A DNA stretch of 64,000 nucleotides, taken from contig CANENE010000003.1 of NCBI GenBank assembly GCA_947428835.1, positions 1 through 64,000 on the forward strand. The letters are read 5' to 3'. Source of the DNA: an uncultured bacterium (GTDB lineage: Bacteria > Cyanobacteriota > Vampirovibrionia > Gastranaerophilales > Gastranaerophilaceae). Under the pieces are notes generated by a model. That model was given only the letters and a program-made list of their open reading frames with translations, was not told the origin of the DNA and ran no database searches. Position 1 is the stretch's first letter; the number at the start of each line of letters is the position of its first letter. Shown piece after piece: positions 1 through 41,324 of the stretch. The position numbers and the translations under genes are program-made.

Positions 1-1070
1 GGTATCGGAGGTCCAAACCCGTCAGGACCTGCGTCTCCTACATTGTATTTAGAAACACAGATGTTTCTGTTTGCTCCTGACATTTTTTTATCTATAAATA
101 TTGCAACAATCTTATCGCAATCTTCCTGGGAAGTTGGTTCTCCATAGAATGGATTTACTGTCGGGTCTTTTATACCATTTCCTCCGGGAAGTTCTGATAC
201 ATCAACAGTGATACTATCAAGTACACATCTGGTTGAATATGCATAGGAATTACTTTGATGTCCTGTGTCACCTGAGCCTGCCGCAGGATTGAAACTGTAT
301 GAAAAATATACATCAGAACCATCTCTTAAAGTGTTTGACCATAAGTTAAACATTCTGCAGTATTTGTCAGGTACACCTATGCATTGTGCCGCTGCTCTAC
401 AGGTATTTGCACCTGTATAATCGTAATCAAAACAAAGCTGCAAACCTTCTTTTCCTTTGTTATTATTTAAAGAGTTTAAGTTATTGCTCCAATTAATTAA
501 TTCATCTTTATTTGGAAGCCTCCATCTTCCTTCATTTTCATCGTTTGGAGCATAAGCAGCGCAGCTTGCATTTGCTCCTTGAAAGTTGCATACTGTTCGA
601 TTACATCCCGAGTAATCACTATCTCCATTTTTTCCGTTTGTACAAGGAGATGACGTAGCACCACTCCAGCAACAGCTTTCATTATCACTACATGTGCTTC
701 CTGCGTTAAGCTTTTTAACACTATCGGCAAGAGGAAGTTCATTGTCTCCCATATTGTATTTAGTTACACAAAGGTTTCTTGTCCCTCCGTTCATTGCAGC
801 AGGGATAAATAAAGCATCATATTTATCGCAATCTTCTTTGGTAACTTGTCTTTCTAATGTCATATTTACATTACTTCCGCTTCCAAAAGAACCTATTGAA
901 ATATCTGATGCTTTCAATTTCTTCGTTATAATCGGAGTAAATGCTGCAACTAAAAGAGAGATTATAATCAAGCTTATCAAAATCTCTATCAAGGAGAATG
1001 CTTTGGATTTATTAAAAAATTTTTTGTACAACAAAAATAACCCTATTGGGCTTAGACTTCTTTTTTTCAT
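1..1070 (-). CDS. Prepilin-like cysteine-rich repeat protein, C-terminal part beyond the window edge
   Basis: An open minus-strand frame starts at ATG 1070 and runs off the left edge with no stop (about 356 codons visible). The N-terminus is basic, then has a type IV prepilin motif AFSLIEILISL and a hydrophobic segment (about residues 24-42) followed by KKLKASDISIGSFG. After that comes one complete Cys-rich unit containing YSGCNRTVC and WRLP, resembling DUF1566-type domains, and the start of a second. It is a paralog of the 36822-39845 gene over its whole visible length. The residue before the cleavage-site Phe is Ala rather than the usual Gly. A weak Shine-Dalgarno (AGGA) lies 10 nt upstream. 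The neighbouring XRE regulator is divergent. Likely a surface or pseudopilus-associated adhesin; the function is inferred. Confidence 0.85.
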   Translation of the reverse strand, partial: MKKRSLSPIGLFLLYKKFFNKSKAFSLIEILISLIIISLLVAAFTPIITKKLKASDISIGSFGSGSNVNMTLERQVTKEDCDKYDALFIPAAMNGGTRNLCVTKYNMGDNELPLADSVKKLNAGSTCSDNESCCWSGATSSPCTNGKNGDSDYSGCNRTVCNFQGANASCAAYAPNDENEGRWRLPNKDELINWSNNLNSLNNNKGKEGLQLCFDYDYTGANTCRAAAQCIGVPDKYCRMFNLWSNTLRDGSDVYFSYSFNPAAGSGDTGHQSNSYAYSTRCVLDSITVDVSELPGGNGIKDPTVNPFYGEPTSQEDCDKIVAIFIDKKMSGANRNICVSKYNVGDAGPDGFGPPI

Positions 1071-1098: not shown

Positions 1099-1230
1099 AA
1101 ATATTGCAACAATTAGATATTTTACCTATAATTGTTACTGGTTGTAGTTTATAAGATTTATATAGCGCTCTATTTCAAATAACAGCTTAAAATCCGCGCT
1201 CTAGTATAAATATATATCATGTATGTTACT

Positions 1231-1271
1231 TTGTCAACCAAAATAGGGTGAACTAGTTTATTAAGTAAACT
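1231..1271 (+). promoter_or_regulatory. Promoter and inverted-repeat operator of the XRE/S24 gene
   Basis: TTGTCA (1231-1236), a 17-nt spacer and TAGTTT (1254-1259) form a plausible promoter. A 17-bp inverted repeat, AGTTTATTAAGTAAACT (1255-1271), covers the -10 and start region. This placement suits autorepression by the adjacent regulator. The 10-mer ACTTTGTCAA around the -35 is also present at the second XRE gene. Confidence 0.5.
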
Positions 1272-1293: not shown

Positions 1294-1923
1294 ATGTCAG
1301 AAATAAATTTGAAAAAATTACGCTTTGAAAATAATTTAAGCCAACAAGACTTAGGTGATATTTTAAATGTTACAAAACAGCAAATAAGCAAAATTGAAAA
1401 TGGCAGAGCGAAACTAACACAAAAAAACTATGAAGCACTTAAAGAAAAATTTGATATTACCTGTCTTCAAGATAACAAAGTAAACACGGAATTTGTTGAG
1501 CTTGATTATTATCCGAATTCTCCTTGTTTTATTAAGGACGGGCGTGTTTTAATGTCTGATGATAAAAGAAAATACAAGCTTCCGGTTGACTTTTTCCCAT
1601 GGCAAAAGGATAAAAATTATTTTGTATGTCATGCGGTAGGTACTTCAATGGAACCTTTGATTTCCGATGGTGATTTTGTAGTCTTAGAAGAAAAAGTTGA
1701 TAATGAAACGTATTTAGAAATTGAGGATGGTACGATATATTTATTTTCCTATGAAGGAAAAATTTATCTAAAAGCTTTGAGTGTGAATATTAATCAAATT
1801 GTTGTAAAATCCATAAACAAAGATTTTATGGTTCAATATATTAACCATGACGATTTTATGAGCCTTGGGTTAGTTGGCAAAGTTATTTGTCATGGTAGAA
1901 TTTGCCAAAGGTGTATTATATAA
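1294..1923 (+). CDS. XRE-family repressor with S24 (LexA/CI-like) peptidase domain
   Basis: 209 aa. Residues 5-50 are a helix-turn-helix (LSQQDLGDILNVTKQQISKIENG). Residues about 105-205 match an S24 domain with the Ser motif GTSMEP (S118) and the presumed catalytic Lys K160 in IYLKAL, a spacing normal for LexA/CI repressors. No Ala-Gly or Cys-Gly dipeptide is visible between the HTH and S118, so classical RecA-stimulated self-cleavage is uncertain. The start ATG follows AAGGA at 13 nt. It is divergent from the prepilin-like gene at 1-1070 and its own promoter carries an inverted repeat. It probably represses itself and perhaps the prepilin-like gene (inference). Confidence 0.85.
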   Translation: MSEINLKKLRFENNLSQQDLGDILNVTKQQISKIENGRAKLTQKNYEALKEKFDITCLQDNKVNTEFVELDYYPNSPCFIKDGRVLMSDDKRKYKLPVDFFPWQKDKNYFVCHAVGTSMEPLISDGDFVVLEEKVDNETYLEIEDGTIYLFSYEGKIYLKALSVNINQIVVKSINKDFMVQYINHDDFMSLGLVGKVICHGRICQRCII

Positions 1924-36821: not shown

Positions 36822-39800
36822 CTAATTTATATTTTCCTGCCCGTCATAAACACATCTTGCACTTGCAGCCAAAGTATATGTGCCGCTATATACGTTATCG
36901 GGCATGGCAGGGGCATAATAAACATTGCTTCCTGCTGATGACTGTGTCCAATTATGATGTGCAAAACAGTAGCCGTTAGAATAGCTTGTGCTTGCCGATC
37001 CGGGGCAATTTCCTACATAGTAGCATTGAACGTAGCCCGATGTAATTTCGCGTGTACACAGCTGCAGACCGTCTTTTCCTCTGTTATTATTAATTTCCTC
37101 CATATATTTGGTCATATTGGTAAATTCACTGTTAGTCGGAAGCCTCCAATAATTAGAGGGTGTTTTTCCTCCTGCTGTATACCTTTTACAAGAGGCATTT
37201 GATACATTCCACTGGCATACTGTCCTGTTGCATCCCGAGTAATCAGCACCTGCGTTTCCTGTCATACCACAGCTTCCTTTTTGTGCAGTTGCGCCACTCC
37301 AACAACAATAGCCCGCTTTAGGGCAGGACTGTCCAGCAGTTAAAGAATATTGTTTATATTCCGATGGAATGTTTGGGCCTGAACCGTTTGGGCCGTTGTC
37401 TCCCACGTTATATTTGCTTATACAAAGGTTTCTTCCGCCGCCTGTGTATTTTTTATGTGCAAATATAGCTGTCAATTTATCACAATCAGCCTGACTTTTA
37501 GGCTCATCATCAGGTGCATTTGAATCATCATAATCGCTTATATTTCCTTTTTTTCTTACCGTTCCATCATATACACATCTTGCACTTGCTGCTAAAGTGT
37601 GATTAGCACTATAAGTTGAATTTGGAGTTATAGGAGCATAGTATATATTTGTTCCTGCTGAAGTTTCGGTCCAATTATGATGTGCAAAACAGTAGCCGTT
37701 AGAATAGCTTCCGCTTGCCGATCCGGGGCAATTTCCTATATATTCGCACTGTACATAACCTCCTAAAGGAGTATGCGTGCATAATTGCAAACCGTCCTTT
37801 CCTCTGTCGTTATTGATGATATTAAAATAATTAGCCATACTTGAATATTCAGCTTGTGTTGGAAGTCTCCAGCTTCCTGCCTGGGTTTTTCCGTTTGCTG
37901 TCCAGCTTAAGCAGCTTTCATTTGCAGGTGTCCATTGACAGACTGTCCTGTTGCATCCCGAGTAATCAGCACCTGCGTTTCCTGTCATAGAACAACCGGC
38001 TGCAGTTTTGCCCTTCCAGCAGCAATAGCCGCTATGAGGACAGCTTTGTCCTACATTTAAAACATAATTTTTGTAGCTGTCAGGAATTTTTGGGCCTGAG
38101 CCGCTTGGACCCGAGTCTCCCACATTATATTTACTTACACATAAGTTTCTCATGCCGCCGGCGTACTTTTTATGAACAAAAATTGCGGTTAATTTTTCAC
38201 AATCAGCCTGAGATTTGGGTTCGTCTTTCGGGGCATTGGAGTCATCATAACCGCTTAAATCTTCTTCGTAGTTATTAGCCTTAGTAATACCATCATAAAC
38301 ACATCTTGCACTTGCAGCAAGGGTATGTTGCATAGAAGATGATATGTTTGGTGTTATTGGTGCATAATACATATTGCCTGAACCTGCAGAAGACTCAGTC
38401 CAGTTGTGATGCGGGAAGCAATATCCTGCAGAATAACTTCCCCCGGCAGACCCCGGACAATTTGGTGCGTAGTAACATTGAACATAACCGCCTGTAGCCT
38501 CACGTGTGCAAAGCTGCAGACCGTCTTTTCCTTTGTTGTTGTTTAATACATTAAAATTCTGTGCCCAAACACTATATTCTGAAATTTTAGGAAGTCTCCA
38601 GGCACCTTTTGCAGTAGCTCCAAAGGCATTATATTCCCTACAGGCAGCGTTTGCTGCATTCCATTGACAGACTGTTCTGTTGCAACCGCTATAGTTTGCC
38701 CCTGCATTACCTGTGATACCGCATGTGCCTGCCGTTTTACCTTTCCAACAACAGCTTCCATTGTATGGACAGCTTTGTCCGATGTTCATTATATATTGTG
38801 TAAAGCTTTCAGGTATAGGCGGTCCAAAGCCATCGGGACCAGCGTCTCCTACGTTATATTTAGAAACGCAGATGTTTCTGTTTGCTCCTGACATTTTTTT
38901 ATCTATAAAAATAGCAACAATCTTATCACAATCTGCCTGGTCTTTGGGCTCTCCATAAAAAGGATTTACTGTCGGATCTTTTATTCCGCCACCATTTGGA
39001 AGCTCCGATATATCAACAGCAATACTATCAAGCACGCATCTTGTACTGGAAGCAAAATTATCAGATGTGCTTGTTACTTTTATAAGTTTTCCTTCGCTGA
39101 AATAGTGATGAGCCCCTTCACCATCGCCTGTAATAAAAGCATAGGGATAACACCTGTTGTTATCATTTGCACCTATACAATTTTCAGCATAATCGCAAGT
39201 ATCAGAGCCGTCAACTGCTTGTAAGCTGCACATCTGTAGACCATTTTTCCCTTTATTTGTCTGCAAATTTGTTAAATTATTTCCCCAGTTTGTTTGTTCT
39301 TCAATTGTGGCAAGCCTCCAACTTCCTTCATTTTCATCGTTTGGAGCATAAGAGGCGCAACTTGCATTTGCAGCAGCAAATTGACATACAGTTCTATTGC
39401 ATCCCGAGTAATCGCCGTCTCCATTCTTGCCTGTTGTGCAGGTTGTACTTGTATTTCCGCTCCAGCAGCAATTCCCTTTATCTTTGTCGTTGCATGTTTG
39501 TCCAACATTAAGTTTTTTCACGCTTTCTGCCAAAGGAAGTTCATTGTCTCCCATATTGTATTTAGTTACACAAAGGTTTCTCACTCCCCCGTTCATTGCA
39601 GCAGGGATAAATAAAGCATCATATTTATCGCAATCTTCTTTGGTTACCTGCCGCTCCAGCGTTATATTAACATTACTTCCGTTTCCAAAAGAACCTATTG
39701 AAATATCTGATGCCTTAAGCTTCTTTGTAATAATCGGCGTGAATGCTGCAACCAAAAGAGAGATGATGATTAAAGAAATTAGAATTTCAATCAAAGAAAA

Positions 39801-39845
39801 TGCACAAAATTTACCATAACAACTTGTGCTATGTTTATAATTCAT
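36822..39845 (-). CDS. Giant prepilin-like protein with four cysteine-rich DUF1566-like repeats
   Basis: 1007 aa. Residues 1-16 are a basic leader, then AFSLIEILISL begins a prepilin-type hydrophobic helix (to about 36). Four tandem units follow (about 64-283, 300-530, 545-775, 785-1003). Each opens with an ADCDK/AIF block and RNLCVSKYNVGD-like block and carries CCWKGKTA, GNAGADYSGCNRTVCQW, WRLP, RGKDGLQLC and LAASARCVYDG, with 12-14 cysteines. Units 2-4 are most alike. The domain resembles the DUF1566/FISUMP-type C-type-lectin-like family. It is likely exported, disulfide-stabilised and surface bound. It is divergent from an XRE gene and paralogous to 1-1070. The residue before the cleavage Phe is Ala. 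CTCC-complement GGAG lies 6 nt upstream of the ATG. Confidence 0.85.
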   Translation of the reverse strand: MNYKHSTSCYGKFCAFSLIEILISLIIISLLVAAFTPIITKKLKASDISIGSFGNGSNVNITLERQVTKEDCDKYDALFIPAAMNGGVRNLCVTKYNMGDNELPLAESVKKLNVGQTCNDKDKGNCCWSGNTSTTCTTGKNGDGDYSGCNRTVCQFAAANASCASYAPNDENEGSWRLATIEEQTNWGNNLTNLQTNKGKNGLQMCSLQAVDGSDTCDYAENCIGANDNNRCYPYAFITGDGEGAHHYFSEGKLIKVTSTSDNFASSTRCVLDSIAVDISELPNGGGIKDPTVNPFYGEPKDQADCDKIVAIFIDKKMSGANRNICVSKYNVGDAGPDGFGPPIPESFTQYIMNIGQSCPYNGSCCWKGKTAGTCGITGNAGANYSGCNRTVCQWNAANAACREYNAFGATAKGAWRLPKISEYSVWAQNFNVLNNNKGKDGLQLCTREATGGYVQCYYAPNCPGSAGGSYSAGYCFPHHNWTESSAGSGNMYYAPITPNISSSMQHTLAASARCVYDGITKANNYEEDLSGYDDSNAPKDEPKSQADCEKLTAIFVHKKYAGGMRNLCVSKYNVGDSGPSGSGPKIPDSYKNYVLNVGQSCPHSGYCCWKGKTAAGCSMTGNAGADYSGCNRTVCQWTPANESCLSWTANGKTQAGSWRLPTQAEYSSMANYFNIINNDRGKDGLQLCTHTPLGGYVQCEYIGNCPGSASGSYSNGYCFAHHNWTETSAGTNIYYAPITPNSTYSANHTLAASARCVYDGTVRKKGNISDYDDSNAPDDEPKSQADCDKLTAIFAHKKYTGGGRNLCISKYNVGDNGPNGSGPNIPSEYKQYSLTAGQSCPKAGYCCWSGATAQKGSCGMTGNAGADYSGCNRTVCQWNVSNASCKRYTAGGKTPSNYWRLPTNSEFTNMTKYMEEINNNRGKDGLQLCTREITSGYVQCYYVGNCPGSASTSYSNGYCFAHHNWTQSSAGSNVYYAPAMPDNVYSGTYTLAASARCVYDGQENIN

Positions 39846-39857
39846 AGTTACTCCTTT

Positions 39858-40055
39858 TGTTAGATTTTAGCTAAAGTTATCTTAATTTTGGCTATTTTTA
39901 ACTAATTCACCATAAGCCAAAATAACTTTTACAAAACCCCATGTAAAAATTTCGCTTATATGTTATAGTTATAGAAAATAGTTTGTTAGAATAATATGAT
40001 TGTACAGTTATTTTAAAACTTTGTCAATCTATAATAAAACTATTTTACAATAGTT
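39858..40055. promoter_or_regulatory. Regulatory region between the giant prepilin gene and its XRE gene
   Basis: It holds TGTTAGA at 39858 and 39984 (also twice in the first module), ACTTTGTCAA at 40018-40027 (also at the first XRE gene), and an 18-bp inverted repeat AACTATTTTACAATAGTT (40038-40055) just upstream of the XRE start. The layout mirrors 1074-1271 and suggests autoregulation and control of the prepilin gene. Confidence 0.45.
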
Positions 40056-40075
40056 AATATGTATTGATTAAAAAA

Positions 40076-40372
40076 ATGTCGACACAAGGGCAACGCTTAA
40101 AGAAAATTAGATTAGAATTAAATCTCTCTCAAGATGAACTGGGAAAGAAACTTGGTGTTTCTAAGCAATATGTTTCAAATATAGAAGCAGATAGAAATGT
40201 TTTGAACAATGAAAAACTTGTTTGCTTGTTATCTGATTTCAATATTAATATAAACTATATTTTAGCAGGGCTTGAAGAGCCTTTTATTTCTGCTAAAACA
40301 AGTATAACAGATGATTTTAGGCAAAATGTAAAAATTATTTTAAAAGAAGAAGGGCTTATTGCAAAGCTTTAA
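40076..40372 (+). CDS. XRE-family HTH regulator
   Basis: 98 aa. Residues 4-60 are a canonical helix-turn-helix (LKKIRLELNLSQDELGKKLG, then VSKQYVSNIEADRN). There is no S24 peptidase domain, unlike the first module's regulator; the C-terminal 40 residues are short and helical. I start at ATG 40076; an upstream TTG at 40064 is possible. No ribosome site is seen, and TAATAT (40055-40060) would give a very short leader. It is divergent from the giant prepilin gene and overlaps the 3' end of the TOPRIM gene by 17 nt. Confidence 0.82.
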   Translation: MSTQGQRLKKIRLELNLSQDELGKKLGVSKQYVSNIEADRNVLNNEKLVCLLSDFNININYILAGLEEPFISAKTSITDDFRQNVKIILKEEGLIAKL

Positions 40373-41324
40373 GAATATCTTTTATTTCACTGTTTTTAAA
40401 ATCTTCTCTGTTCGCATTTTTTTTAATATAATCTTTTAAAATTAACGCAAATTTTGCTTTTTTATAATCACCAAAACCGTATTTTCTATGAATTGTTTCA
40501 AGATTATCAACAGTTGATATATTGTCTGCAAAATCATCAATTTTACAGTGATAATCATTTTTATAGTAGTTATTTATAGCGCCTATCATAAGTTCTTTCG
40601 GGATAATGTCTTCAAATTCGCCGCTTTTTAATAAATATATTGTGTCTTTTTTTCGAAGCTTTGTTTTAATGAGGTTTTTGACTTCAAGTGCATCAATATC
40701 AAGCAAAATAAAAATTGGAAGTTCAAGATATTCGATTAATTCATAGTATTTTCTTGCAAGTCTGTTTTTGCCATCAGCCCTAAAAACAAAGTAGCCTTCC
40801 TTGTCTAAATCAAAATCAAAAAGCTTAAATATCGTTTTTAAAAGTATGAGTTCTGTCTGTCCTTCAACAAGAAGAACTTTTTCAATTGGGTATAGAAGTT
40901 TCTTTTCTTTTCTTAAATCAGTTATAGCGCAATTGCTTTTATTAATTTCTTTTAGCCAATTGATATTTTTTAAATCAGATTGTATATCTTTAATTCTATT
41001 GATAATTTCACTGTAGTTGATATCAGAAGACAAATACTTATATGAAATCATTGACTTGTCAAAATTTTTAAAATATTTTCTTTCTAAATCAATCAAAATG
41101 TTTTTAATTTTATTTTCGTTGTTTGATGGCAAATTGGAGGTAAAGATATTTTCTGCAATATTTATAATTTCATCGTCATTTAAATTTTTAGCGTTAATAT
41201 TTTGATATTTATTAATGATATCCGAAAATACTCTTTTATATCTTACATATGCAGGCTCTAATCTTGTTAGTCTGTCTAGAATTGTAACCAAATATTCATT
41301 ATTATCAAAAATATTTTGCTTCAT
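40356..41324 (-). CDS. Stand-alone OLD-type TOPRIM domain protein
   Basis: 322 aa. The C-terminal half is a TOPRIM domain: LLVEGQTELILLKTIF (catalytic-type Glu E154), ILLDIDALEV (D209-x-D211) and SGEFEDIIPKEL (E236, E238, D239), as in the OLD family of nucleases. The N-terminal 140 residues are helical with no Walker A/B motif, so the ABC ATPase that normally precedes this TOPRIM is missing. OLD proteins serve in phage defence and DNA processing. It has a leaderless-type promoter and overlaps the XRE gene's 3' end. A defence role is inference only. Confidence 0.75.
   Translation of the reverse strand: MKQNIFDNNEYLVTILDRLTRLEPAYVRYKRVFSDIINKYQNINAKNLNDDEIINIAENIFTSNLPSNNENKIKNILIDLERKYFKNFDKSMISYKYLSSDINYSEIINRIKDIQSDLKNINWLKEINKSNCAITDLRKEKKLLYPIEKVLLVEGQTELILLKTIFKLFDFDLDKEGYFVFRADGKNRLARKYYELIEYLELPIFILLDIDALEVKNLIKTKLRKKDTIYLLKSGEFEDIIPKELMIGAINNYYKNDYHCKIDDFADNISTVDNLETIHRKYGFGDYKKAKFALILKDYIKKNANREDFKNSEIKDILKALQ

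Follow-up and report, generated by a model that had tools for sequence, protein, structure and literature searches.

Divergent regulator genes opposite a large family of prepilin-headed Lcl_C proteins in a gut bacterium of the Candidatus Gastranaerophilales: an array of candidate private switches

INTRODUCTION

The genetic switches of temperate phages are built around a CI-type repressor, and in coliphage 186 the promoters of the switch stand face to face. A dedicated local regulator is also familiar from bacterial surface systems, as in fimbrial operons, which have their own regulators, and in TonB receptors, which have their own sigma/anti-sigma pair; to our knowledge, such systems use one regulator family for each kind of system. 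Large paralogous families of surface proteins are often phase variable. Closest in protein sequence to the genes treated here are the Legionella protein Lcl (PDB 8q4e), which carries the Pfam domain Lcl_C, and the variable proteins of diversity-generating retroelements (DGRs). In the available portions of two reports on such elements (PMC4159848, PMC6642488), DGR variable proteins are described with DUF1566/Lcl_C domains and as pilin-linked targets, so the retroelement part of the present system is of a known kind; those portions make no mention of a dedicated regulator for each DGR target.

We analyzed a window of 64,000 nucleotides from a gut bacterium of the Candidatus Gastranaerophilales (Melainabacteria) in which two prepilin-headed genes lie opposite regulator genes. 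Like a phage repressor switch, the arrangement combines a divergent regulator (XRE or XRE-S24) with operator-like palindromes specific to its type and, in nine modules, with predicted face-to-face promoters; the operator-like DNA is co-conserved with the regulator by type, with the window's own block having diverged. However, a phage CI-type switch has an opposed regulator (Cro, Cox, or Apl), whereas here the opposed gene encodes a prepilin and there is no second repressor, and about 40 such predicted switches run in parallel in one genome. The likeness to fimbrial operons and TonB receptors is that every surface system has a local regulator dedicated to it; the difference lies in about 40 single-gene units with XRE, XRE-S24, MerR, and other regulators. 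Unlike in Legionella Lcl, the Lcl_C domain is here repeated and placed behind a prepilin anchor. The window proteins have their C-terminal domain family (DUF1566/Lcl_C) in common with DGR variable proteins, but these carry a VR, and the two window genes have none matching the genome's own TR. No such layout was found in the openly licensed literature on Gastranaerophilales/Melainabacteria pilins or retroelements, on prepilin/DUF1566/retroelement combinations, or on divergent XRE and pilin genes, in agreement with the original prediction, which knew of no described system of this kind. The parts are known; we judge the arrangement to be new, with its 40 or so parallel modules in which the regulators differ from one another and the control DNA is conserved along with them.

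RESULTS

At the locus between 36822 and 40372, the minus strand encodes a prepilin-headed protein of 1007 amino acids (36822..39845; ORF and Pfam matches) that begins with the prepilin N-terminus FSLIEILISLIIISLLVAAFTPIITKK and continues into four Cys-rich repeats of the Lcl_C/DUF1566 type (39024-39635, 38289-38933, 37563-38204, and 36840-37487, all on the minus strand). Its Lcl_C match scored 50.5 bits against a Pfam cut-off of 34.9. Across a gap of 218 bp lies a divergent XRE regulator on the plus strand, a bare HTH protein of 102 amino acids (40064..40372; HTH_3 E=4e-12) for which an ATG at 40076 (MSTQG) is an alternative start. By the sigma-70 consensus, the pilin promoter is predicted on the minus strand with its -35 (TTGACA) at 40022..40027 and, over a 17-bp spacer, its -10 (TACAAT) at 39999..40004; the predicted ribosome-binding site of the pilin gene, AAAGGAG, is at 39851..39857 on the same strand. 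Inside the pilin leader, the plus-strand sequence TTATATGTTATAGTTA (39956..39971) is a predicted extended -10 of the regulator promoter, as judged from its agreement with the consensus TGnTATAGT. A similar sequence occurs in most of the orthologous intergenics compared and is absent in one of them (L214). Tail to tail with the XRE gene, and overlapping its 3' end, is an ORF with an OLD-like TOPRIM domain (40356-41324; PF20469). A HipB-like type II toxin-antitoxin pair was considered and rejected: the couple_hipB model scored 34.5 bits against a cut-off of 71.65, and the partner of the XRE gene is the prepilin gene.

The second locus occupies positions 1 to 1923. Since the window begins at base 1 of its contig (C3), the minus-strand prepilin/Lcl_C gene found here (3..1070) is incomplete, running for 356 amino acids before it is cut by the contig end, and its Lcl_C score is only 21 bits, below the cut-off of 34.9. 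It is of the same kind as the 1007-residue gene, with 73% identity between the products across the matched length. The divergent regulator (1294..1923, plus strand; E=5e-14) joins an XRE domain to a CI-like Peptidase_S24 domain and matches PHROG repressor families. A pilin promoter is again predicted from the sigma-70 consensus (1209..1237, minus strand), with TTGACA at 1232-1237, a 17-bp spacer, and TATATT at 1209-1214. Both window regulators exceeded the HTH_3 cut-off of 23 (46.6 and 40.5 bits), and both prepilin genes exceeded that of PF07963 (N_methyl), their N-termini carrying the FSLIE motif. The ORFs and Pfam matches bear out the original prediction that each locus pairs a minus-strand, prepilin-headed, Cys-rich repeat gene with a divergent XRE gene, that the two prepilins are paralogs, and that the regulators are unlike, one with an S24 domain and the other a bare HTH.

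Whole-genome searches with N_methyl, the 1007-residue protein, and HTH_3 covered 1.8 Mb and returned 45 prepilins, 41 of which belong to the Lcl-type prepilin family of the window genes. The "two copies" of the module first proposed were thus low by a factor of about 20, the larger number being beyond what the window alone could show. A divergent HTH_3 (XRE) gene lay 120 to 320 bp away, hit to hit, from 37 of the 45 prepilins, compared with a chance expectation of 0.4, and all 37 were family members. Among the four remaining members of the family, the gene opposite encodes a MerR protein in one case (PF13411, E=9e-17) and, in two, a small putative HTH protein of one kind that lacks a firm Pfam match; the fourth, located where a contig ends, has tyrS opposite and no regulator. 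Four short ordinary prepilins of the GFTLAEIL type have no divergent regulator-type neighbor and so provide an internal negative control for the linkage. The two small proteins (L033:5405-5620 and L048:2808-3065; 71 and 85 amino acids) probably represent an unrecognized HTH type, and a further module regulator (C12:17405-17938; 177 amino acids) has two HTH domains in tandem. By match ends, 16 of the 48 contig ends fall within family members, and many contig ends have exact matches of at least 51 bp to other sites, which indicates that the assembly breaks on the prepilin family.

The query region of the 1007-residue protein was present in 19 of 28 genomes of the genus, and most prepilins of the family kind in the stretches fetched from these relatives face an XRE or HTH-S24 gene; those in L113, L138, and L141, and one in L126, have no divergent regulator. 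Of eight other congeneric genomes with an ortholog of the window XRE (54 to 60% identity), seven have a prepilin opposite it, and in the eighth the stretch is interrupted by a contig end. Homologs of the S24 regulator had a prepilin opposite at 9 of 11 places. None of the more distant XRE homologs in those congeneric genomes faces a prepilin. Outside the genus but within the family, 15 homologs of the window XRE were compared: 14 had no adjoining prepilin, and opposite the remaining one (L232) is an ordinary prepilin of the GFTLAEIL type, 269 amino acids long. As far as sampled, then, the layout is mainly a property of the genus. The regulators have stayed linked to pilin genes in relatives, and this linkage, together with the type-specific intergenic conservation described below, supports the earlier suggestion of a dedicated regulator beside each surface protein.

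Intergenic DNA was conserved according to regulator type. Of 38 same-type pairs compared across genomes, 36 scored higher than any of the 1,665 different-type pairs, which supports one cognate regulator for each pilin gene. Many of the conserved blocks contain a TTGAC-type -35 plus palindromes that differ by regulator type, for example TTCTATCACGTTCACGAACGTGATAGAA or ATTTATAAGTATATAAATATTGACTTATAAAT. Eight modules with a regulator of the window XRE's type have ATTGACAAGTATT and a TATAAT-like -10 in common; in the window itself, the promoter block has diverged from those of its orthologs (intergenic score 9.5). The mean palindrome score of the intergenics was 13.9, compared with 10.8 (standard deviation, 0.26) in dinucleotide shuffles. 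The best palindrome lay on the promoter, as opposed to elsewhere in the intergenic, in 14 of 26 cases, not significantly more than the 11.4 expected. Near-consensus sigma-70 promoters point towards the pilin in 20 of 40 intergenics (3.1 expected) and towards the regulator in only 3; half of the modules are without a clear consensus pilin promoter. TGnTATAGT occurs on the reverse strand of the leader in nine long-leader modules of this genome, the window's included, and may be an extended -10 from which the regulator would be transcribed back over the pilin promoter. A GGCA-n-TGCC palindrome adjoins this box in seven of the nine, beside different regulators (e.g., C10:58681, C2:45765, and C9:62255); possibly it is a shared site or an RNA hairpin.

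The two halves of the module have had opposite histories. For the cross-genome statistics, G021 and SUTT01, which a locus common to both shows to be one genome, were merged, and uncertain records were left out. Within the genome, the regulators are mutually distinct (best identity, median 43% and maximum 62%), whereas the pilin N-termini are near-identical (best identity, median 94%). The best match of a pilin N-terminus was within the same genome for all 40 of its modules and for 24 of 31 modules in relatives, but the best match of a regulator was within the same genome for only 22 of 40 and 2 of 31, respectively. The regulators have counterparts in other species at up to 90% identity, as recurring types that stand beside pilins of another clade. 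Pilins are thus homogenized within species, while the regulators, together with their control DNA, have been preserved from one species to another. Paralogous pilin genes also share exact tracts of 100 to 258 bp although their proteins are often only about two-thirds identical, which points to recent gene conversion among them.

A model of an Lcl_C repeat of the 1007-residue protein (pLDDT 85) had as its best match among solved structures the C-terminal domain of Legionella Lcl, at a Z score of 7.8, under the caution line of 8. Other top matches were the Treponema DGR protein TvpA, formylglycine-generating enzymes, and C-type lectins, the top rows being mostly of C-type-lectin-like fold. Foldseek with the repeat model gave no E value under 0.001, and a sequence-profile search of solved structures gave nothing useful. 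The structural matches make a ligand-binding, lectin-like fold for the modeled repeats likely. The genome has one prepilin peptidase (PF01478, at C2:217867) and five matches to the pilus-type ATPase family PF00437, four of them above the cut-off.

A single reverse transcriptase was found in the genome, 13 kb past the window on the same contig. It belongs to a DGR comprising a bAvd protein, a TR, and a variable protein that is itself a prepilin and likewise has an XRE gene opposite. The window prepilins were considered as variable proteins of this DGR and rejected, as the TR matches only other loci and neither gene has a VR corresponding to it. In this element (L036:12817-16306, corresponding to C3:76817-80306), coding-strand T positions account for 12 of 16 TR-VR mismatches (12/56 at T, 3/60 at C, 1/36 at A, and 0/61 at G), a pattern that would fit mutagenesis of a TR strand antisense to the variable protein. 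In the DGR of a relative (L193), the pattern is the canonical one, and 24 of its 26 mismatches are at A.

DISCUSSION

From intergenics conserved by type, with their promoters, palindromes, and reverse -10 boxes, we infer a private repressor switch. With a probability of roughly 0.7, the two window loci belong to a set of about 40 such modules distributed over the genome, in each of which the regulator controls its own pilin alone. The linkage, the diversity of the regulators, the type-wise conservation of regulators and control DNA, and the homogenization of the pilins are observed; what they may amount to in the cell is read from the DNA. Each module would consist of one prepilin-headed surface protein, mostly of Lcl_C (C-type-lectin-like) repeats, and one divergent DNA-binding regulator, which would bind sites in the intergenic DNA and exert cis-acting control with private specificity for its own pilin gene. 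Most likely it would repress both the pilin promoter and its own. In the nine long-leader modules, the regulator promoter is predicted inside the pilin leader, face to face with the pilin promoter, so that expression could be switch-like. The surface proteins would probably be processed by the single prepilin peptidase and reach the cell exterior through the type IV pilus machinery, to act there as ligand-binding pilins. Among the modules of one genome the pilin coding sequences recombine, the regulator and its DNA site serving as an old, conserved, and mutually distinct address, and the DGR, which has a few of the pilins as targets, further varies this subset.

Private control has to be weighed against cross-talk, that is, one network of regulators binding many intergenics, with coordinated or mutually exclusive expression and not 40 private circuits. 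The TGnTATAGT box is common to nine modules with different regulators, seven of them with the nearby GGCA-n-TGCC palindrome, and within one regulator subfamily, at 54 to 62% identity, several palindromes are variations on CAATTG. However, intergenic conservation runs within regulator types and not between them, and most of the regulators are too dissimilar for a common site to be expected. On balance we think such a network unlikely.

The sign of the control is a separate question. XRE and MerR proteins can activate, and a regulator acting as a signal-responsive activator of its pilin gene would fit the half of the pilin promoters that are not near consensus as well as the activation known for these families in general. 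Repression is nevertheless the better account, as the other half are near consensus and should need no activator and the conserved palindrome covers or flanks the -35 in several types; we would be surprised, though not greatly, to find activation.

That the XRE and pilin genes together form a mobile or selfish cassette, their linkage being due to transfer or recombination with no control of the pilin by the regulator, we consider improbable. Regulator types do recur across species beside different pilin clades, and the family holds many contig ends and its copies recombine. Against this, regulators unrelated in kind fill the same position, and homogenization within the genome affects the pilins and not the regulators, so the pair is not evolving as one traveling unit; a phage origin was likewise dropped, no relative of the modules being confirmed among viral contigs. 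Switching by DNA rearrangement, through slipped-strand tracts or invertible promoters with the regulators secondary, is very improbable despite the general frequency of phase variation in large paralogous surface-protein families, since none of the 40 intergenics has a homopolymer or short-repeat tract and a spaced inverted repeat (15 bp) flanks only one of the 40 modules.

Returning to the private repressor switches, we offer one extension tentatively, as a possible but rather doubtful reading: the roughly 40 mutually distinct regulator/site addresses kept across species might each hold an interchangeable pilin-lectin cassette, with the switch-like, face-to-face modules letting single cells show different small subsets and with gene conversion and the retroelement renewing the cassettes. 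If private control is true, this member of a little-studied lineage of non-photosynthetic cyanobacteria from animal guts would have an unusually large set of parallel, distinct genetic switches on one surface-protein family. The prediction can be put to a direct test with short DNA fragments and the purified proteins, and the conserved switches, set against their interchangeable pilins, would constitute a natural experiment in regulator specificity among dozens of relatives per cell.
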